The notes below the pieces were generated by a model. The model was given only the letters and a program-made list of their open reading frames with translations. It ran no database searches and had not been told where the DNA came from. From positions 1-22,227 of the forward strand of contig MNUO01000115.1 in assembly GCA_001871015.1 (NCBI GenBank): a stretch of DNA of 22,227 bases, read 5' to 3'. Below, piece after piece: positions 2,544 through 14,716 of the stretch. Numbering within the stretch: position 1 is the stretch's first letter; every line of letters starts with the position of its first letter. A program made the position numbers and the translations under genes. This stretch comes from Candidatus Desantisbacteria bacterium CG1_02_38_46. GTDB lineage: Bacteria > Desantisbacteria > UBA1551 > UBA1559.

Positions 2544-3389
2544 TCACTCCATCAATTTAAGATATTCCTGTGCTTTGGGGGATTTTTCCATTGAAATGGA
2601 TTTTTTTAATTCTTCTTTTGCTTTTTCAATCTCCCCAAATCTATAATAGATAATTCCAAGTTCTCTGTGTGGAAAATATTCAATAAAATGCATTCCGTAT
2701 GTCCGCGCTTTACAACGGTCCCTGCTCTCCAGAGATATAGCACCAAGAAAGGCATTTTTTGCTTCTTCCAATTTGCCCAGTTGTGCAAAAATTTTTCCTT
2801 CCCCATAATAATCCCACCAATTCATATCTCCTGCTGGAGATACTTTTTTCTCTAATGAAACTATTGGTTTTGGTTGAGATGCTTTAATTTGAGGAGGAGG
2901 TAATAAAATTTCAGGTGTGGTAGAGAGCCCTGCCATTTTGTTTGCAAGATTAGATACAGCAGATAATAATTCATCTTCACTCTTAACTTTTTCCGGTTCT
3001 GCTTTTTCAATCTTGCCGGTCTCTATATTAATAAGTTTTAGATTAATAAGATAGGTAGTGCCAACTTTTCCTATGGAACCGGTAAACATCTTACGTACCC
3101 CAAGTAATTGCCCTACCTGTATAATACATTCCTGGCTTGTGCAGCCTGATATCTGAAAATTCTGCTCCTTCAAAATTGTCTCCATATTTTCTCTTGTAAC
3201 CATGGTAAACTTATCTGTATTCACAATCTGCGTGCGCAGATAATCAGAAATTATAGATGCCACACCCACAGAAACTCCTTCCTTTGCATCTAATTCCATA
3301 ACAGCAACAGTCATTTTGGTCTCTTGGGCAAAAAGAGAAGCTAGAAAAAACCAAAAACAAAGAAGAAGCCCAAAATAAAATTTTTTCAT
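2544..3389 (-). CDS. CsgG/FlgO-like periplasmic protein with C-terminal TPR
   Basis: 281 residues. A signal peptide (about 1-21, ending FLASLFA) is followed by a CsgG/DUF2380-type domain (about 24-155): MTVAVMELDAKEGVS, FTMVTRENMETILKEQ, then a paired-cysteine stretch SGCTSQECIIQVGQLLG and GSIGKVGTTYLINLKLINIETG. This domain class includes CsgG, LpoB and FlgO, proteins that oligomerise at or under the outer membrane. After a proline-rich linker, residues about 190-281 look like two TPR units (GKIFAQLGKLEEAKNAFLGA; IIYYRFGEIEKAKEELKKSI). No lipobox cysteine is at the cleavage site, so it is probably soluble in the periplasm. Good Shine-Dalgarno AAGGAGGG; 9 bp after the barrel gene. Confidence 0.78.
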   Translation of the reverse strand: MKKFYFGLLLCFWFFLASLFAQETKMTVAVMELDAKEGVSVGVASIISDYLRTQIVNTDKFTMVTRENMETILKEQNFQISGCTSQECIIQVGQLLGVRKMFTGSIGKVGTTYLINLKLINIETGKIEKAEPEKVKSEDELLSAVSNLANKMAGLSTTPEILLPPPQIKASQPKPIVSLEKKVSPAGDMNWWDYYGEGKIFAQLGKLEEAKNAFLGAISLESRDRCKARTYGMHFIEYFPHRELGIIYYRFGEIEKAKEELKKSISMEKSPKAQEYLKLME

Positions 3390-3398
3390 AGACCCTCC

Positions 3399-4751
3399 TT
3401 AGAAATATAATACTGGCGTGAACATTACATCAAAGCGTCGCTGGCAAATGTCAAGTGCAAAATCGAAAGACCACTGTTCTCTTGAAAAACCCATTCCTAT
3501 GGTTATATGGTGCAGGTCAGCATCTTTTCCATATTTCTGTCCAAGGATTGTTCTATCCTGTGCAGTTTCTCCTGTAATATTCTGGTCTCTTTGAAATTTA
3601 TAAAAATCCTGAGCGCTGGGTTCAAGATAATAGCCAAATCTTAACGGAAGTATAAGTTCTTCCCCCTTCTTTCCCAGAAAGAATAAATATTCAACTCCGG
3701 CATGATATTCAATTGCATCTTCAAAAACCCAGTTGTCAGTGCGGTCAGGATCCATTTGAGTATAGGCAATATGATTGACCTGCATTGAAATTGTGAACAC
3801 ATCCCGGATACGCATAGCAAATCCTGCACCTATAAACCGCGGATACTTAAAATCAAAATCATTATGAAATGGATAATAATAATTCTGGTCAATTTTTGTC
3901 CAGCTATCGAACTCCATTCTCGCAGAGCTAAAATCTTTATAAACCAGACCAAAACTCAATCCAGAAACAGGGCGATACAGAACTCCTATGGAATACGAAA
4001 GCAATGAAGGTTTCTTCTCAAACCATGTTTTGTTATAAAAAGGACTTGTAATGGTATTTCCATCTTGTGCTAATTTTGGGAAATATTCTTCTCTTGATTT
4101 ATTTGTTTCTATCTGTTCTATAGAAGGAATCATTCCGACTTTAAACCCGAAAGAAAGACTTCTTATTAAATTGAACGCAAAAGCAGCTCCAAAATCAGGT
4201 TGACTATAATAGTGCTCCTGCTCCCTTTTATCTTCCCAGGACAATCCTATATCCTTACCACCAACATTCTTAAGATAAACAGGACCTTTTCCGCCTTGAT
4301 TACTATTTCTGAATTCAATATAATCCTCATAACCTGTTGTCCCAAAGCCAATAGCCATATTTTTCCAGGGATATACATAATTGATTGTACGAACATCTCC
4401 CTGTGGTCCACCACTGCCTTCTTTAGATTCTTGAAATTTAATAGCGTCATGCCAGTCAGTATAAACATAAGTTGGTTTACCCGTCTCCCACTGATTGGGG
4501 TCACAAGGATAGATTTGTCTGTATCTTTGTTCTCCTCTCATCCTCGCCAGATAAGACATTTCTGGCCTTTTTAATAAAACCATTCCCGCGGGATTCCAGG
4601 AATATGCTGTTGCATCATCAGCAATCGCAACAAATGCTCCACCCATTGCCTTACTTCTTGCTCCATCGCCAGCAAACTCATAATGCCCGGCATAAGCCAC
4701 TACTGAAGAGATTAGGATTGAGATTGAAAATAAAAATATTTTTTTATACAT
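3399..4751 (-). CDS. FadL/PorV-like outer-membrane beta-barrel protein
   Basis: 450 residues with signal peptide (about 1-21, ...SSVVAYA). The N-terminus of the mature protein carries GDGARSKAMGGAFVAIADD followed by ATAYSWNPAGM, a hallmark of the OMPP1/FadL-TodX and PorV/PorQ barrel superfamily, where a single passage of Gly/Ala-rich hatch precedes the strands. The rest alternates hydrophobic/aromatic strands, and the chain ends ...FDVMFTPVLYF, a terminal-aromatic beta-signal expected for BAM insertion. It may be a channel or an outer-membrane anchor/shuttle as PorV is in type IX secretion; substrate unknown. It lies between FecR and CsgG-TPR genes in the same operon (19-bp and 9-bp gaps); only a weak Shine-Dalgarno is seen. 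Confidence 0.75.
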   Translation of the reverse strand: MYKKIFLFSISILISSVVAYAGHYEFAGDGARSKAMGGAFVAIADDATAYSWNPAGMVLLKRPEMSYLARMRGEQRYRQIYPCDPNQWETGKPTYVYTDWHDAIKFQESKEGSGGPQGDVRTINYVYPWKNMAIGFGTTGYEDYIEFRNSNQGGKGPVYLKNVGGKDIGLSWEDKREQEHYYSQPDFGAAFAFNLIRSLSFGFKVGMIPSIEQIETNKSREEYFPKLAQDGNTITSPFYNKTWFEKKPSLLSYSIGVLYRPVSGLSFGLVYKDFSSARMEFDSWTKIDQNYYYPFHNDFDFKYPRFIGAGFAMRIRDVFTISMQVNHIAYTQMDPDRTDNWVFEDAIEYHAGVEYLFFLGKKGEELILPLRFGYYLEPSAQDFYKFQRDQNITGETAQDRTILGQKYGKDADLHHITIGMGFSREQWSFDFALDICQRRFDVMFTPVLYF

Positions 4752-4770
4752 TTTGGTCTCTTCTTTCTTC

Positions 4771-5580
4771 TCACTTTACGGTGGGCAGTTTTTCTTCTTT
4801 CTTTTCCTTCTGCTGTTGAATTTTCTCCTGAGTTCTTTTTTTGAAATCCTCAACTTTCTTTTTCATTGCCTCAATTTTTACCTGTCGGCGATTGCGGATT
4901 TCTTCAAGACGCAGGCGATTCTGCTCTACCCGCTGGCGGAATTTAGCAACAATATTCTCGCGATATAGACGGGACTTTTTACTTAATGCCTGAGGAGTTA
5001 AAGGAGCTTTTCCTTTTTCAACCAGTGTTTGCTGGTCCTGAGAGACCCTAACTGATTGCCCCGATATAATCGGGGCAGATACATCAACCTCACCTTCGAA
5101 AACAGCAACCTCTGTTTTGTCCTTTTGAGATTCCACAGAGAATTCAGTTCCCCTGACACCTGCAACCGCAGTTTGAGTTTTAATATTATATCTAGATTCC
5201 TTATGAATCAATTTCTTGAGGTTATTCAGGACTTTTCCCAGTCCCAGGTTAATCAAGAAACTTTTCTTTCCTTCTTCTGTACCTTCCTCAATTTTGGAAT
5301 CCACAATTTCAATGAGAGTTTTTTCCTCAATGCGCAGCATACTGCCGTCATCCAGGATTAGTTCTGCTTCAGATTTCGCTTCAGTTTTCACCTTATCTCC
5401 TGGATACACCGGCATATCCACATCAGCTTTTTCCCATTTTTCTTCACCGCCGCGCTGGACAGTAACTTTTCCCTTCACGGTAGTGAAAGAACCAACAAGT
5501 ATCTGTTCTTTTCCCAAGCTAATTACAGAAAATGCAGACAGAATTATCCCGCAAAGGACAAAAATGACAATTTTCTTCAA
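4771..5580 (-). CDS. FecR-domain periplasmic protein with coiled-coil tail
   Basis: 269 residues. The signal peptide (about 1-23) is followed by a FecR domain (about 28-170): VGSFTTVKGKVTVQRGG, VYPGDKVKTEAKSEAELILDDGSMLRI, then TQTAVAGVRGTEFSVE. These beta-helical domains sit in the periplasm and, in the classic case, relay signals from an outer-membrane receptor; here there is no sigma-factor gene nearby, so a structural role is as likely. The C-terminal 65 residues (QRVEQNRLRLEEIRNRRQ...) are strongly charged and helical, probably coiled coil. Start is a TTG at 5580 with GGAGGG just upstream; no ATG fits better. Directly between the LPP20 lipoprotein and the barrel gene. Confidence 0.82.
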   Translation of the reverse strand: MKKIVIFVLCGIILSAFSVISLGKEQILVGSFTTVKGKVTVQRGGEEKWEKADVDMPVYPGDKVKTEAKSEAELILDDGSMLRIEEKTLIEIVDSKIEEGTEEGKKSFLINLGLGKVLNNLKKLIHKESRYNIKTQTAVAGVRGTEFSVESQKDKTEVAVFEGEVDVSAPIISGQSVRVSQDQQTLVEKGKAPLTPQALSKKSRLYRENIVAKFRQRVEQNRLRLEEIRNRRQVKIEAMKKKVEDFKKRTQEKIQQQKEKKEEKLPTVK

Positions 5581-5594
5581 ATGCCCTCCCTGTT

Positions 5595-6044
5595 TTATTG
5601 CAGTTTGAGCCCAACCCTTCTTGCCAGTCCCTGTAAATCAATGCGTAGCGTCACCACACAGCCATCGTCTTTCATCCACTCAGTCTTGATGATTTCCGCT
5701 CCCTTAATTTCGGCATCGACCGTTGCAGAAATTACAGAATCAGTCTGCATTGCTTTTTCAATTGTAACTCCACCTTCAATGTGCACACCCTTTATCATTG
5801 TTGCTAATTGATACTGTGCAGCGACAATTGCTGCTTCCCTTGAGGTTGCACGACGCTGGGTCTGACTCTCGAGATTTGGGTCCGCCGCACCAATTCCTAT
5901 TGATTCAATGTACCTCCTGTCAATTTTCTCAGCCCCAAGAGTATCCTTGAGTTGTCCACCCTTTGTATGCGGAGTCTGAGTGGCACATCCTGCTAACAGA
6001 ACTACAACTCCCATTACACACATAACACCAACAATCCTTTTCAT
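5595..6044 (-). CDS. LPP20-family (FlgP-like) lipoprotein
   Basis: 149 residues with a lipoprotein signal (MKRIVGVMCVMGVVVLLAGC; lipobox LAGC). The mature part fits the LPP20 fold: ESIGIGAADPNLESQTQRR, ATSREAAIVAAQYQLATMI, and a C-terminal strand pair ending VTLRIDLQGLARRVG. LPP20 proteins include Helicobacter Lpp20 and Vibrio FlgP, the latter forming outer-membrane rings at the flagellar base. It is the first gene of the envelope operon, behind a leader of about 260 nt and a strong Shine-Dalgarno (AAGGAGGGGG). Together with the CsgG/FlgO-like and FlgT-like genes downstream it makes a FlgO/P/T-like set without visible flagellar genes. Confidence 0.78.
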   Translation of the reverse strand: MKRIVGVMCVMGVVVLLAGCATQTPHTKGGQLKDTLGAEKIDRRYIESIGIGAADPNLESQTQRRATSREAAIVAAQYQLATMIKGVHIEGGVTIEKAMQTDSVISATVDAEIKGAEIIKTEWMKDDGCVVTLRIDLQGLARRVGLKLQ

Positions 6045-6244: not shown

Positions 6245-6269
6245 AACAAAAGGCAGAGTAAACTCTGCC
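6245..6269 (-). terminator. Terminator-like hairpin in the operon leader
   Basis: GGCAGAG-TTTA-CTCTGCC (7-bp stem, 6252-6269) is followed on the minus strand by TTTTGTT. It lies after the dinG stop, so it may end the phosphate-operon transcript. It is also about 40 nt downstream of the envelope promoter, so it would act on that transcript as an attenuator. The run of Ts is short, so efficiency is uncertain. Confidence 0.5.
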
Positions 6270-6312
6270 ACTACAATTACATCTGACAGCTTAAGCATTA
6301 CCTATATTGATA

Positions 6313-9234: not shown

Positions 9235-9897
9235 TTATTTTTCGGTGATGTGGTGGCGGATGTCCTTACCCTGAACCATAAATATTACTTCTTCGCCGAT
9301 ATTTGTAGCGTGGTCAGCGATTCGTTCAAGATGTCTGGAAATAAGAATCAAGTCCATTGCTCGTTGAATTGTTCCTGGGTCAGACATCATATATGTTAAT
9401 AGTTCGCGGAATACCTGGTCCTTTAAATCATCAACTTCATCATCTCGGACACAGACTGATTTTGCAAGTTCGGGTTCCTGTTGCACAAAAGCATCAAGAC
9501 TATCTTTTACCATTTGCCCGGCAATTTCAGCCATTCTCGGAATATCAATTAAAGGTTTAAGCAGAGGTTGTTTTAGTAATTCTTTTGCTGCCTGGCAGAT
9601 ATTTATTGCCTGGTCTCCCATTCTTTCGAGTTCGCTGTTGATTTTAATGGCAGTTACAAGAAATCTCAAATCAACCGCTGCAGGTTGATGTAATGCTATC
9701 ATCTTTATTGTTCTATCATCAATTTCTACCTGCAAAAGGTTAATCTCATCCTCATTTTTGTAAACCTGGTCAATAATGTCCTCTTTTTGTTCAACCAGTG
9801 CTTTAACTGAATCTGAAATCATTGTTTCTGCAAGTCCTGCCATATAAAGCAATTTCTCTTTTAAATTTTTTAATTCTTCATCAAAGTGTCTTTCCAT
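9235..9897 (-). CDS. phoU: Phosphate transport system regulator PhoU
   Basis: 220 residues, the usual length. Two three-helix PhoU repeats are visible, each with its acidic metal-site signature: SELERMGDQAINI (about 88-100) and RHLERIADHATNIGE (about 188-202). PhoU couples the Pst transporter to the PhoR histidine kinase and restrains the Pho response when phosphate is plentiful. It starts at ATG 9897 with GGAGGTTG immediately upstream and follows the second pstB after an 80-bp gap that contains a repeat-like element. No phoR or phoB is in the window. Confidence 0.96.
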   Translation of the reverse strand: MERHFDEELKNLKEKLLYMAGLAETMISDSVKALVEQKEDIIDQVYKNEDEINLLQVEIDDRTIKMIALHQPAAVDLRFLVTAIKINSELERMGDQAINICQAAKELLKQPLLKPLIDIPRMAEIAGQMVKDSLDAFVQQEPELAKSVCVRDDEVDDLKDQVFRELLTYMMSDPGTIQRAMDLILISRHLERIADHATNIGEEVIFMVQGKDIRHHITEK

Positions 9898-9977: not shown

Positions 9978-10730
9978 TTAGCCGAAGCGGCCTGTAATGT
10001 AATCCTGTGTCTTCTGATTATCAGGACTGGTAAATATTTTGCTCGTTGTTCCAAATTCTATCAGTTCTCCTAAAAGCATAAACCCGCAGCAATCTGATAC
10101 TCTTGCTGCCTGCTGCATATTGTGTGTGACAATCACAATTGTGTATTTCTTTTTTAATTCAAACATCAGTTCTTCAATTTTTGCAGTTGCAATAGGGTCC
10201 AGAGCAGAACAGGGTTCGTCCATAAGGATTACCTCGGGTTCAATAGCCACAAGTCTTGCCATACACAGTCTCTGTTGCTGTTCTAATGGTAGTTCTGTGG
10301 CAATGGAATTCAGTTTATCCTTCATTTCATCCCAGAGTCCAGTTGCTTTTAAACTGCGCTCTACAATTTCTTCAAGCCTGAAGGCTTGAGTTACTCCATG
10401 AACTTTTAATCCATATACTACATTGTCAAATACTGAAAGGGGAAAGGGATTTGGGCGCTGAAAAACCATTCCCACATGCCTGCGCAATTCCACAACATCT
10501 ATATTTTTAGAATAAATATTTTTATCTTTAAAATCCACTTCTCCAGAAATTTTTACCCCTTCTATTAAATCATTCATTCTGTTCAGGCATCGCAACAGTG
10601 TTGATTTTCCACAGCCGGATGGACCTATTAATGCTGTAATTATTTTTTCCTGAAATGCTATACCTATATCCTTCAGTGCCTGAAAATTTCCATAATAAAA
10701 ATTGAGGTTTTTAACTTCAATAGTGTTCAT
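9978..10730 (-). CDS. pstB: PstB-type phosphate ABC ATPase, signature motif degenerate (PstB-2)
   Basis: 250-residue ATPase of the Pst importer. Walker A GPSGCGKS (36-43), Q-loop Gln91 ([10 protein letters not shown]), Walker B VILMDEP with catalytic Glu172, SALDP D-loop and H-loop His203 (VTHNMQQA) are all intact. The ABC signature, normally LSGGQQQR, reads LPLEQQQR (147-154): Ser, Gly and Gly are replaced, which should prevent it from closing on the ATP bound by its partner. It begins directly after the stop of the other pstB (TAAATG) and ends 80 bp before phoU. Its own Walker site could still work with the intact signature of the neighbouring paralogue. From memory, similar LEQQQ variants exist in other bacteria, so this is probably not decay. 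Confidence 0.93.
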
Positions 10731-11483
10731 TTAGCCAAACCTTCCTGAAATGTAATCTTCTGTTCTTTTATCATTAGGACTGGTAAATATTTTCCCTGTT
10801 TCATTGGACTCGATGAGTTCACCCATCAGAAAAAATGCAGTATAATCTCCAACTCTTGCTGCCTGCTTTGTATTATTTGTCACGATTATTATCATATATT
10901 CTTTTTTCAATTGCCTCATTGCTTCTTCAATCTTTGCTGTAGAGATGGGGTCAAGTCCTGAACAGGGCTCATCCATCAATATTATATCAGGTTTTAATGC
11001 AAGCGCCCTTGCTATGCAGAGTCTCTGTTGCTGTCCTCCTGACAATTTCATTGCAGGGTCATTCAGTCTATCTTTTACCTCATCCCATAGAAATGCATCT
11101 TTTAGACTTTTTTCTACTATGCCATTCAACTCTTTTTTATTTGTGATGCCAGCGAGTTTCGGTCCATAAACAATATTTTCAAAAATACTCATTGGCAAAG
11201 GGATGGGTAGGGCAAAAATCATTCCAACCCTTCGGCGTAATTCTACAGGATTTATACCCTGGTATATATTTTTCCCATCAAATAAAATTTCTCCTGTAAA
11301 TTTCATTTCTGGATCCAGGTCATTCAGGCGATTCAAACATCTCAAAAATGTTGTTTTTCCACTTCCAGCAGGTCCTATTACTGCAAGAATTTTATTTGGA
11401 GTTATATCGAGGTTGATATTTTTGAGCACATGCTTATCCCCGAAAAAAACATTTAGATTTTTAACACTTATTTTATTATTCAT
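10731..11483 (-). CDS. pstB: PstB-type phosphate ABC ATPase, Q-loop and H-loop altered (PstB-1)
   Basis: 250 residues, colinear with the other PstB. Walker A GPAGSGKT (37-44), signature LSGGQQQR (147-154), Walker B IILMDEP with Glu172 and SGLDP are intact. The Q-loop glutamine at 91 is Ala (GMIFALPIPLP) and the switch histidine at 203 is Asn (VTNNTKQA). These are exactly the functions its neighbour keeps, while it keeps the signature its neighbour lost. The ATG at 11483 matches family N-termini (MNNKISVKNLN) but has no Shine-Dalgarno. The frame stays open to an ATG at 11522 inside a palindromic repeat, so a repeat-derived extension of 13 residues is possible. Confidence 0.93.
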   Translation of the reverse strand: MNNKISVKNLNVFFGDKHVLKNINLDITPNKILAVIGPAGSGKTTFLRCLNRLNDLDPEMKFTGEILFDGKNIYQGINPVELRRRVGMIFALPIPLPMSIFENIVYGPKLAGITNKKELNGIVEKSLKDAFLWDEVKDRLNDPAMKLSGGQQQRLCIARALALKPDIILMDEPCSGLDPISTAKIEEAMRQLKKEYMIIIVTNNTKQAARVGDYTAFFLMGELIESNETGKIFTSPNDKRTEDYISGRFG

Positions 11484-11556
11484 TGAATTATTTTGCAGAG
11501 CAAGCTCTGCCACTACTTCCATTCACAGCAGAGTAAACTCTGCCACTACTGACGAC
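11484..11556. repeat. Two palindromic repeats between pstA and pstB-1
   Basis: Hairpins GCAGAG-CAAG-CTCTGC (11495-11510) and GCAGAG-TAAA-CTCTGC (11528-11543), each followed by CACTACT/CACTACTT, fill the gap. They belong to the same family as those at 6113-6269 and 12411-12510. The loops differ (CAAG, TAAA) as complementary four-base variants. One copy lies in the possible extended reading frame of pstB-1. Confidence 0.85.
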
Positions 11557-12393
11557 TTATAAATTTCTTTTCGTAAATTTATGCATTATCCAGTAAGCGG
11601 TAAGGTTCATCGCAAGGATAAAAATTACCAGAACTGCCGCGGTCCCACAGGCATTTTTCATAGAAATCCCCTCGCGTGAAAGGATATAAAAATGCACTGA
11701 CATTGTGCGCACTGAATCAAACAGGGAAGAAGGTAGGCGAAGAGAAGAGCCTGCAGTAAAAATTACTGCTGCTGTTTCACCTACACTTCTTCCTATTCCA
11801 AGAATTATTCCTGTCACAATTCCGGGCAGAGCATTTGGCAAAACCACTTTTTTTATAGTCTCCCATTTTGTTGCACCCAGTGAAAAACTCACTTCGCGGT
11901 AAGAATATGGCACAGTTTTGATTGCCTCTTCAGAAGTTCTAATAATTGTTGGAAGAATCATAAATGCAAGGGTTAGCCCACCAGAAAGAATTGACCATCC
12001 CATTTTTAAAGTAACAACAAATAAAATAAAACCAAAAAGTCCGAATATAATAGAGGGAATCCCAGCCAGGGACTCTGCCCCAAAACGGATAATCTTTGTA
12101 ATTTTTCCCTCTCTGATATATTCAGTTAGATATACTGCTGCTCCAACCCCAAGTGGAGTTGCTATGACAATTGCTACAAGAGTCAGTACAAATGTTCCTA
12201 TGATAGTGGGCAGAATTCCCCCTGCTTTACCCATTTTTGCAGGGAAGTTAGAGAGGAATTCCCAGTTCAATACAGGTATTCCCTTGCTTAACATAAATAC
12301 AATTATAAAAAGAAGTATGAAAATTGTCAAACCTGTTGCAATTCCTAATACTATTCTCATTATTTTTTGAGAAGTTTTTGGGTTTAATCTCAT
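11557..12393 (-). CDS. pstA: Phosphate ABC transporter permease PstA
   Basis: 278-residue inner-membrane permease that pairs with PstC to form the phosphate channel. Six hydrophobic segments are apparent (about 13-35, 63-88, 108-130, 134-150, 193-212, 250-270). The EAA coupling loop for PstB reads EVSFSLGATKWETIKKVVLPNALPG (split here as EVSFSLGATKWETIKK plus VVLPNALPG), followed by the typical GIGRSVGETAAVIFTAG helix. Start ATG 12393 has GAGGT close upstream, sited just after the pstC-pstA repeat block, so ribosome access is kept despite the hairpins. Followed by two pstB genes. Confidence 0.95.
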   Translation of the reverse strand: MRLNPKTSQKIMRIVLGIATGLTIFILLFIIVFMLSKGIPVLNWEFLSNFPAKMGKAGGILPTIIGTFVLTLVAIVIATPLGVGAAVYLTEYIREGKITKIIRFGAESLAGIPSIIFGLFGFILFVVTLKMGWSILSGGLTLAFMILPTIIRTSEEAIKTVPYSYREVSFSLGATKWETIKKVVLPNALPGIVTGIILGIGRSVGETAAVIFTAGSSLRLPSSLFDSVRTMSVHFYILSREGISMKNACGTAAVLVIFILAMNLTAYWIMHKFTKRNL

Positions 12394-12403
12394 AAAACCT
12401 CTA

Positions 12404-12518
12404 TTGTAGTGGCAGAGTTTACTCTGCCCCTATTGTAGTGGTCGAGCTTGCTCGACTTTTCTGCAGAGTAAACTCTGCCACTACATAATGATCTGCAGAG
12501 TAAACTCTGCCACTACAA
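12404..12518. repeat. Four-hairpin repeat block between pstC and pstA with perfect 24-bp inverted arms
   Basis: Four stem-loops: GGCAGAG-TTTA-CTCTGCC (12411-12428), GTCGAG-CTTG-CTCGAC (12441-12456), GCAGAG-TAAA-CTCTGC (12463-12478 and 12495-12510). The outer arms, 12404-12427 and 12495-12518, are perfect reverse complements over 24 bases, so the whole block can fold as one long cruciform or RNA stem. No T-run follows, so it is not a standard terminator. Confidence 0.9.
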
Positions 12519-12520
12519 TT

Positions 12521-13366
12521 TTAACGTTTTCTTACAGCATAGTTTGCTATAATATTCAGAATCATTATTATTATAAAAAGAACCACTCCAGTTGCAAATA
12601 GAGCTTGCCGATGGTCTCCTGCTGCAAATCCCATCTCCAGGGCAATGTTTGTGGTCAGAGTACGGGCAGGATCTAGAATTGACCTTGGAATTTTTACAGC
12701 ATTTCCAGCAACCATAATTACTGCCATTGTTTCTCCAATTGCCCTTCCCATTCCAAGAATTATACTTGCTACAATTCCAGAGCGAGCTGCTTTTAGTACA
12801 ACCATATGAATTGTCTGCCACTTAGTTGCACCCATTGCGAGGGAACCTTCTCTGTAAGAGCGTGGCACTGCCTGAATTGCATCAATAGAAATGCTGATAA
12901 TTGTTGGAAGAATCATTATCCCCAATATTATTGAACCTGCAAGAATTGAAAGTCCCGGCCCTCCGAGATTTTCTCTTATCAATGGCACCAGCACAACCAT
13001 TCCTATAAATCCATAGACCACCGAAGGAATTCCAGCAAGCAATTCAATTGTAGGTTTTAAAATTGCCATTATCCTGCGAGGGACAAATTCAGAAAGAAAG
13101 ATTGCACAAGAGAGTCCAAGTGGAACACCAATAATAAGTGCTCCTGCTGTAATCCATAGCGTGCCAAGAATCATAGAAAAAATACCGAATTGCCCTTCGA
13201 GGGGGAACCATTTGCTACTTGTGACAAAATTCTTAAAACCCACCTTAAATATTAAAGGCGTGCCTTCTTTGAAGATAAATATGGCTATCAGAAAAAGCAT
13301 AAAAATTGCTGAAAGGGCAATCAAAAAAAGACTTTTTTCAATAACGACTTCTTTGGTATTTTTCAT
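12521..13366 (-). CDS. pstC: Phosphate ABC transporter permease PstC
   Basis: 281-residue partner permease of PstA. The N-terminal segment (about 12-32, LFLIALSAIFMLFLIAIFIF) and further hydrophobic spans give six membrane helices. The coupling loop reads EGSLAMGATKWQTIHMVVLKAARSG (seen as REGSLAMGATKWQTIHMV then VLKAARSGIV), followed by ILGMGRAIGETMAVIMVAGN, both typical of PstC. The ATG at 13366 overlaps the pstS stop (ATGA), and no Shine-Dalgarno is seen, so translation is coupled to pstS. A 127-bp repeat-filled gap separates it from pstA. Confidence 0.95.
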   Translation of the reverse strand: MKNTKEVVIEKSLFLIALSAIFMLFLIAIFIFKEGTPLIFKVGFKNFVTSSKWFPLEGQFGIFSMILGTLWITAGALIIGVPLGLSCAIFLSEFVPRRIMAILKPTIELLAGIPSVVYGFIGMVVLVPLIRENLGGPGLSILAGSIILGIMILPTIISISIDAIQAVPRSYREGSLAMGATKWQTIHMVVLKAARSGIVASIILGMGRAIGETMAVIMVAGNAVKIPRSILDPARTLTTNIALEMGFAAGDHRQALFATGVVLFIIIMILNIIANYAVRKR

Positions 13367-14172
13367 TTTGTTTTACTGTATATTTTTGCTGGTATCAAAC
13401 CCTGTTCCTGAATTGTTTTTTGCCCTTCAGGTCCAAGGATATAATCAAGGATTCCTCTGACATAAGTTTCAGCTCCTGTTTTTATCAAGAGGTAAATTGG
13501 GCGGACAAGTTTGTATTTGCCTGCAACAGTATTCTCGGGGCTTGCAGCTATCCCATCAATTTTTAATGCTTTAACTTTTTCATTAACAACTCCATGCGAG
13601 ATATATCCGATAGCGTTGGGGTCATTTATGATGGTTTCCCGCACAGTCCCGTTTGAATCTCCAATGATAGCATCTTCTCCAAGCTTCAGTCCCTTTAGCA
13701 TCAGGTCTTCAAAAGATGACCTCGTGCCTGAGCCTGCCTCACGGGAAACAACAGTAATTGGTTTGTCAATTCCACCGATTTCCATCCAGTTCTTAATTTT
13801 CCCTGAATAAATTGTTCTTATCTGTTCAGTCGTCAAGTTATCTATTTTATTGGAAGGGTGTACCACTAAGCAGATTGCGTCATTTGCAGCAACAAATTTT
13901 TTAAGTTTGTTTGCTTCAGGCGGGAGTGTAACTAAATCAGCCATCCCAATTTGCGCAGTTCCATTTAATGCTGATTGAATCCCGACTGCTGAACCACCGC
14001 CCTGGACATTTATATTCACTCCAGGATTCTTTTTCATATAATCCTCAGCGAGTTGATCAGCAAATGGTAGGAATGCAGTTGACCCGGCCATCGTTATGGT
14101 ACTGCGCTTAGTACAACCACTTACAAAAATTAAAAAAAATGATAGTATTAAAAAAACAATTTCTTTTCTCAT
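13363..14172 (-). CDS. pstS: Phosphate-binding lipoprotein PstS
   Basis: 269 residues from the ATG at 14172, which begins a clean lipoprotein signal (MRKEIVFLILSFFLIFVSGC; lipobox VSGC). Periplasmic binding-protein features include TMAGSTAFLPFADQLAEDY (phosphate-binding Gly-Ser-Thr), NVQGGGSAVGIQSAL, AQIGMADL, and VVSREAGSGTRSSFE (Arg/Ser/Gly-Thr phosphate contacts). It captures phosphate and delivers it to PstCA. The frame is open upstream to 14289 with a lysine-rich stretch, but that is the remnant of the decayed Lon-like gene rather than part of PstS. First functional gene of the pst operon, about 700 bp downstream of PHO-box-like sites. Confidence 0.94.
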   Translation of the reverse strand: MRKEIVFLILSFFLIFVSGCTKRSTITMAGSTAFLPFADQLAEDYMKKNPGVNINVQGGGSAVGIQSALNGTAQIGMADLVTLPPEANKLKKFVAANDAICLVVHPSNKIDNLTTEQIRTIYSGKIKNWMEIGGIDKPITVVSREAGSGTRSSFEDLMLKGLKLGEDAIIGDSNGTVRETIINDPNAIGYISHGVVNEKVKALKIDGIAASPENTVAGKYKLVRPIYLLIKTGAETYVRGILDYILGPEGQKTIQEQGLIPAKIYSKTK

Positions 14173-14275
14173 TTTCAAATTTTGCCTACTTTTCTTCTTT
14201 TTTCTTTGCTTCTTCTTTTCCGCTATTTTTTCTTCAATCAAATTTGAACGCCGTATTTTTTCCTGAATTGCCTTC

Positions 14276-14716
14276 TCAACAATCTTCAAGGAACTTGCTC
14301 ACCTTTGGACAATTCTTATATTTTGATTTAATTTCCTGAATGTGATGTCCTATAGCAAAAAGCGCTATATCCCTTATAGAGCCTTCACCTGCAGGAAGAT
14401 TGATGGACAATGGGGTATCTGGATTCGAGAAATTATATACATAACACCAATCTGGAGGTATTTCCTGGGTCTGTGCAAGTTTCTCCACATAGGATTTTAT
14501 AGTGGATGTTTTTCCGGTTCCGGATATACCAGCGAGATATATGTTGAAACCTGGAGTTTTAATGTTGAGCCCAAAGTCAATTGCATCAACCCCGCGCTCC
14601 TGTCCAATTGTTCCCTCAAGCGGTGGAACTTCACTTGTGTTGTTAAACATAAATTGTCGGGGGTCGCAGGTCCATTTCAATTTTTCAAGAGGTACCTCAA
14701 AATTATTTTTAGCCAT
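14276..14716 (-). pseudogene. Decayed Lon-like AAA protease (AAA_32 / PF13654 type), N-terminal remnant
   Basis: 146 residues. Residues 1-115 match the start of bacterial Lon-related proteases: LKWTCDPRQFMF, PLEGTIGQERGVDAIDFGL, Walker A LAGISGTGKTS, PPDWCYVYNF, and LPAGEG. Directly after LPAGEGSI comes RDIALFAIGHHIQEIKSKYKN and PKVSKFLED, a block that in full-length members lies roughly 100 residues further on, so an internal segment has been deleted. The frame then stops at 14276; one base shifted, it would continue VEKAIQEKI, as expected for the family, implying a frameshift as well. Walker B, the rest of the AAA module and the Ser-Lys protease domain are gone; pstS follows instead. A good Shine-Dalgarno (GGAGGGAT) remains, so a short peptide may still be made. 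Confidence 0.75.

Follow-up and report, generated by a model that had tools for sequence, protein, structure and literature searches.

The pst operon and its tandem pstB genes

The window analysed here, the whole 22,227-nucleotide stretch of DNA from Candidatus Desantisbacteria bacterium CG1_02_38_46, carries on its minus strand an operon in the order pstS-pstC-pstA-pstB1-pstB2-phoU. The source genome is a 133-contig draft of 1.73 Mb that is 88% complete. The genes of the operon, with pstS, pstC, pstA and phoU assigned by NCBIfam profiles, are the following:

13363..14289, minus strand: pstS, phosphate-binding lipoprotein (TIGR02136)
12521..13366, minus strand: pstC, permease (TIGR02138)
11557..12393, minus strand: pstA, permease (TIGR00974)
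10731..11483, minus strand: pstB-1, PstB paralogue with a degenerate Walker/Q/H side and an intact signature
9978..10730, minus strand: pstB-2, PstB paralogue with an intact Walker/Q/H side and a degenerate signature
9235..9897, minus strand: phoU (TIGR02135)

The original prediction had given the coordinates of the two pstB genes correctly, and both lie on the minus strand, with the TAA of pstB-1 abutting the ATG of pstB-2 at a gap of zero nucleotides. Both products score above the cut-off of 343.2 bits for the NCBIfam PstB equivalog TIGR00972 (388 bits for PstB-1 and 369 bits for PstB-2), and they are 57% identical to one another over an alignment with one gap. No third PstB was found in the 88%-complete assembly, where the next-best ABC ATPase reaches 160 bits, short of the cut-off of 343. 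An alternative pstB-1 start at 11522 is possible and would create an ORF of 263 amino acids, the 13 added codons of which consist mostly of a palindromic repeat that is found genome-wide.

This short repeat, AGTGGCAGAG[TTTA/CTTG]CTCTG, is present in 86 exact copies in the 1.73-Mb genome, as against 0 for the reversed control pattern, and is possibly a mobile or regulatory element of the REP-like kind. Of the six copies in the window, three form a cluster in the pstC-pstA interval and two directly precede pstB-1; the copies are at the following sites:

11496-11547: palindromic repeat
12408-12514: palindromic repeat
6254-6272: palindromic repeat

Two further features flank the operon. An ORF of 146 amino acids at 14276-14716 overlaps the start of pstS and resembles a truncated gene; it matches a LonC-type Lon-like protease (Pfam LonC_helical) only over that protein's initial part. 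Downstream, positions 2544-6044 of the window encode envelope-type proteins (a CsgG-like protein with TPR, an outer-membrane porin-like protein, and FecR).

Motif states and their conservation

In a canonical PstB, the Q-loop Gln, the H-loop His and the LSGGQ signature are intact in each subunit. PstB-1 and PstB-2 depart from this arrangement by complementary losses, the motifs reading GPAGSGKTT, IFALPIPLP, LSGGQQ and IIVTNNT in PstB-1, and GPSGCGKST, VFQRPNPFP, LPLEQQ and VIVTHNM in PstB-2. The lesions on which the original prediction was built, Ala91 and Asn203 in PstB-1 and LPLEQ in PstB-2, can be read straight from the codons:

11349..11375, minus strand: PstB-1 Walker A, GPAGSGKTT, with Ser for the Cys of all canonical PstBs
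11211..11213, minus strand: PstB-1 Q-loop codon 91, GCC, Ala replacing Gln (read from sequence)
11031..11045, minus strand: PstB-1 signature LSGGQ, intact (read from sequence)
10968..10973, minus strand: PstB-1 Walker B Asp and catalytic Glu, intact
10875..10877, minus strand: PstB-1 H-loop codon 203, AAT, Asn replacing His (read from sequence)
10458..10460, minus strand: PstB-2 Q-loop Gln91, CAG, intact (read from sequence)
10278..10292, minus strand: PstB-2 signature LPLEQ, degenerate (read from sequence)
10215..10220, minus strand: PstB-2 Walker B Asp and catalytic Glu, intact
10122..10124, minus strand: PstB-2 H-loop His203, CAC, intact (read from sequence)

Two points can be added to that prediction, namely the change of Walker A Cys40 to Ser in PstB-1 (PstB-2 numbering), and the retention of the Walker A Lys, the Walker B Asp and the catalytic Glu in both proteins. 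The losses in PstB-1 do not appear to damage the fold, since an AlphaFold2 model, built for PstB-1, is a confident NBD fold (pLDDT 94.7, pTM 0.91) whose closest structure is E. coli PstB in PstSCAB (9k3x, TM 0.95).

The same states recur in a typed set of 108 distinct PstB-1-type, 104 PstB-2-type and 161 canonical proteins. Types were assigned by the Gln and SGG states, and the counts for those two are thus partly by construction: position 91 of PstB-1-type proteins is Ala in 104, Asp in 2, Glu in 1 and Pro in 1, with Gln in 0/108 and SGG kept in 108/108, while in PstB-2-type proteins Gln91 is present and SGG lost in 104/104. Asn203, Ser40 and the kept His of the partner played no part in defining the PstB-1 type, and the motif-based types are matched by an independent typing from the tree. 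Position 203 is Asn in 107 of the 108 PstB-1-type proteins and His in the other, Cys40 is replaced by Ser in all 108, and Lys42, Asp171 and Glu172 are likewise present in 108/108. For the PstB-2 type, His203 and Cys40 are each found in 104/104, position 149 is Leu in 91/104, and Gly150 is usually replaced, by Glu in 89, Asp in 13 and Tyr in 1, with Gly kept in 1, which makes the position acidic in 102/104. The comparison case for an acidic residue in LSGGQ is CFTR G551D, and a literature search for the effect of such a residue found nothing.

The positions that best discriminate PstB-1-type from canonical proteins (40, 91, 203, 205, 92, 32, 96, 206 and 94) are mostly on the Walker/Q/H side, and the top two for the PstB-2 type are the signature positions 150 and 149. 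In each type, the half that would be contributed to a shared canonical site is invariant.

Distribution, retention and descent of the pair

A first survey of 98 genomes, one per family, identified adjacent PstBs in seven (those of the window, G001, G056, G061, G082, G086 and G039). Complementary losses in an identical gene order were evident in six of the seven pairs in this sample, the exception being G061, where both copies are fully canonical. Further complementary pairs were found in public genomes of Melioribacter (L045), a WOR-1 bacterium (L046), an uncultured bacterium (L050) and an Anaerolineae bacterium (L086). Profile searches of 386 genomes added more, nearly always between pstA and phoU, and targeted searches in three other phyla recovered PstB-1-type proteins in 73/198, 9/10 and 8/68 genomes. 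The complementary pattern is seen in about 90 further distinct pairs, and about a hundred other genomes, from several phyla, retain both of the matching losses. The co-occurrence of both lesions in genomes with two pstB genes, which the original prediction had proposed as a check, is thus borne out, with the same gene order and the same kept halves.

In principle, the draft state of the assembly (133 contigs, 88% complete) could point to an assembly or sequencing error in the window. This explanation is barely credible and was rejected, given that a genome of the same order that was assembled independently (L039) has identical residues and that about 90 other pairs carry the pattern.

In the phylum of G056, 198 genomes divide, at the scores used, into 71 with both types, 4 with PstB-1 only, 3 with PstB-2 only and 120 with neither, and the seven single-type genomes are 53-89% complete. 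The 71 comprise 69 found by search and two, G458 and G415, found by typing lower-scoring matches; the score cut-offs had overlooked these two real pairs, so the co-occurrence counts are lower bounds. Nineteen PstB-1 genomes lacking a neighbouring PstB-2 were rechecked, and 15 hold a PstB-2-type gene, mostly unlinked and beside phoU. The partner is therefore generally kept after break-up of the operon, and lone PstB-1 loci were dismissed as counter-examples to pairing. PstB-2 was not found in 4 of the 19 (64, 53, 87 and 84% complete). Evidence against the pairing comes from G506 and G548 (84% and 87% complete), which belong to a single genus: PstB-1 is accompanied there by a canonical PstB encoded in another operon, and no PstB-2 was found. 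Both types are still present in genomes of 0.4-0.6 Mb.

Some loci depart from the usual arrangement. G460 (L365, L366; 89% complete) has two PstB-2-phoU loci, and PstB-1 was not found. The G039 operon encodes a third PstB-like protein (L044 6487-7257), with Gln kept, Asn for His and LSNGQ, as well as a second, distant PstA; the operon thus appears to encode additional subunits, and this third PstB was left out of the evidence. Also left out were L214, L215 and L216 (LSIGQ/LSVGQ), considered as PstB-2 candidates and found to have another Q-loop (LSQRP) and a branch of their own; this PstB-like group is not paired with the PstB-1 or PstB-2 types.

In one family with a split pst operon (L199, L322, L325-L335), PstB-1 lies with pstCA and PstB-2 is always with phoU, suggesting that PstB-2 may be the subunit that meets PhoU. 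This linkage would also suit an arrangement where a PstB-1 homodimer, with its intact Walker A and B, Glu and LSGGQ, powers slow import, and PstB-2 is a non-pairing regulatory paralogue linked to PhoU. Such a homodimer could draw on the tolerance of H-to-N changes in ABCC1, where transport was kept (PMC7756269), meaning that Asn203 alone need not kill a site. The Q-loop Gln, however, is lost in every PstB-1-type protein, and the retention of all PstB-2 Walker/Q/H residues in 104/104 is sensible only with an LSGGQ-bearing partner to complete the site, making a PstB-1 homodimer improbable.

In a tree built without the motif columns, PstB-1-type proteins form one group (24/24, SH-aLRT 91), as do PstB-2-type proteins (24/25, support 91), and similar subgroups are found within the two. 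This topology is consistent with a single ancient duplication, after which the two copies were inherited or transferred together, and the pairs would therefore not be independent origins; co-occurrence would mostly represent shared retention rather than many independent origins. The Anaerolineae pair (L086) has milder losses, with His kept and LSLGQ, and sits at the edge, with weak placement; it may be an intermediate. The distance matrices of PstB-1 and PstB-2 are correlated (r = 0.81 for 56 representatives, with 0/2000 shuffles as high), as is expected of any two co-inherited genes.

Over 191 non-independent comparisons, pairwise dN/dS has a median of 0.12 (PstB-1) and 0.13 (PstB-2); for the window against G001, synonymous change is saturated. 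By this dN/dS comparison, which had been suggested as a check, both genes are under strong purifying selection, and neither frameshifts, which the original prediction had named as evidence against itself, nor stops are present among the matches listed. The losses do hit normally invariant motifs, as would be the case for a second pstB turning into a pseudogene. Such decay can be given almost no weight, and was rejected, in light of the dN/dS, the intact frames among the matches listed, the invariant kept halves and the retention of both genes in genomes of 0.4-0.6 Mb.

The original prediction had argued for selection over decay. Decay is contradicted by dN/dS, co-occurrence and unlinked retention; an adaptive origin does not follow, as purifying selection is a sign of present need and not proof that the asymmetry arose as an advantage. 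Constructive neutral evolution is a possible, if less favoured, alternative, whereby complementary losses after duplication lock the copies together, yielding the same heterodimer with an asymmetry that is a ratchet rather than an adaptation. The tree is compatible with a single duplication, the L086 pair may record an intermediate, and purifying selection is compatible with either origin. Set against this, the acidic residue at 150 (102/104), Ala91 and Asn203 are more uniform than expected of free drift, part of which is explained by shared ancestry.

A predicted asymmetric phosphate importer

The ATPase of the high-affinity phosphate importer is regarded as symmetric. E. coli PstB of PstSCAB (PDB 9k3x/9k3s) belongs to the same equivalog family, fold and operon as the pair described here, but it is the product of a single gene and forms a homodimer with two canonical sites, in contrast to two diverged genes with complementary losses. 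By motif, either homodimer of PstB-1 or PstB-2 would have no complete site, and the pair is therefore predicted to form an obligate heterodimer on PstC-PstA with one canonical, hydrolytic ATP site and one degenerate site, a reading to which a probability of about 0.8 is assigned. This is the heterodimer of the original prediction, and it is supported by near-perfect co-occurrence across 198 genomes, retention of the partner when unlinked, and purifying selection.

PstB-1 and PstB-2 would thus be the ATPase pair of one importer, PstS-PstC-PstA-PstB1-PstB2. In the first site, the Walker A and B motifs, Q-loop and H-loop of PstB-2 would meet the LSGGQ of PstB-1, and this canonical site would hydrolyse ATP. 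In the second, the Walker A and B motifs of PstB-1, without Gln and His, would face the L-x-x-E/D-Q signature of PstB-2. The original prediction that this weak site lacks all three elements is accurate for Gln, His and a normal signature, and overstated in that Lys, Asp and Glu are invariant in PstB-1. With the Walker A Lys and catalytic Glu kept, the second site probably still binds ATP, held as a structural clamp with little or no hydrolysis, and import would be driven by a predicted one hydrolysis event per cycle. A search for PstC/PstA coupling-loop residues that would assign each permease to a PstB gave no clear signal.

The likeness to asymmetric exporters in the original prediction is partial. 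As in TM287/288, TmrAB, BmrCD and TAP, the two NBDs can pair, at the level of motifs, into one consensus and one degenerate composite site, with one subunit's signature degenerate, here in the NBD that would face the weak site (104/104 PstB-2-type proteins). Those systems are exporters with fused membrane domains, whereas the PstB pair belongs to an importer, and the lost residues differ. In heterodimeric exporters the degenerate site typically has a changed Walker B Glu (PMC7756269); in the PstB pair this Glu is invariant (Glu172 in 108/108 PstB-1-type proteins), and it is the Q-loop Gln and the H-loop His that are missing. ABCG5/ABCG8 is also a heterodimer with a degenerate site and a changed signature, but is a eukaryotic exporter with Walker A Lys changed to Arg (PMC7756269). 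Degenerate ATP sites also exist in the bacterial importers RbsA and NupO, which are type II importers with two NBDs per chain and loss of the Walker A Lys (PMC11466899).

The Firmicutes tandem PstBs (E. faecalis PstB1/PstB2 and B. subtilis PstBA/PstBB) are likewise encoded by two adjacent genes with unequal roles, and the E. faecalis proteins are about 60% identical, similar to the 57% here. In the studied Firmicutes pair, however, Walker A, signature and H-loop are intact in both copies (PMC12096839). Asymmetric exporter heterodimers and degenerate sites in fused sugar importers (PMC7756269, PMC11466899), and Firmicutes tandem pstB (PMC12096839), are thus already known; no earlier report of complementary PstB pairs was found in searches of open-access literature. 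Some tandem pstB genes appear to be canonical duplicates, of the E. faecalis kind, and others complementary pairs of the kind described here; automatic annotation, with the one equivalog TIGR00972, does not separate them.

The linkage of PstB-2 to phoU is the one hint that the asymmetry might act in PhoU signalling; E. coli PstB locked by motif mutations alters phosphate signalling (PMC5775613). A broader proposal, speculative and at present doubtful, is that the pairs represent a widespread, previously undescribed class of phosphate importer with a single hydrolytic site. The second site would clamp ATP permanently and also determine the PstB that is turned towards PhoU, so that one particular face of the pump would serve as the read-out for both phosphate sensing and transport. 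If this lineage does work with one canonical site, one hydrolysis event per cycle can suffice for a type I importer. The pair would then offer a naturally asymmetric pump whose two ATP sites can be addressed one at a time, and the reading of PstB state by PhoU would become testable.
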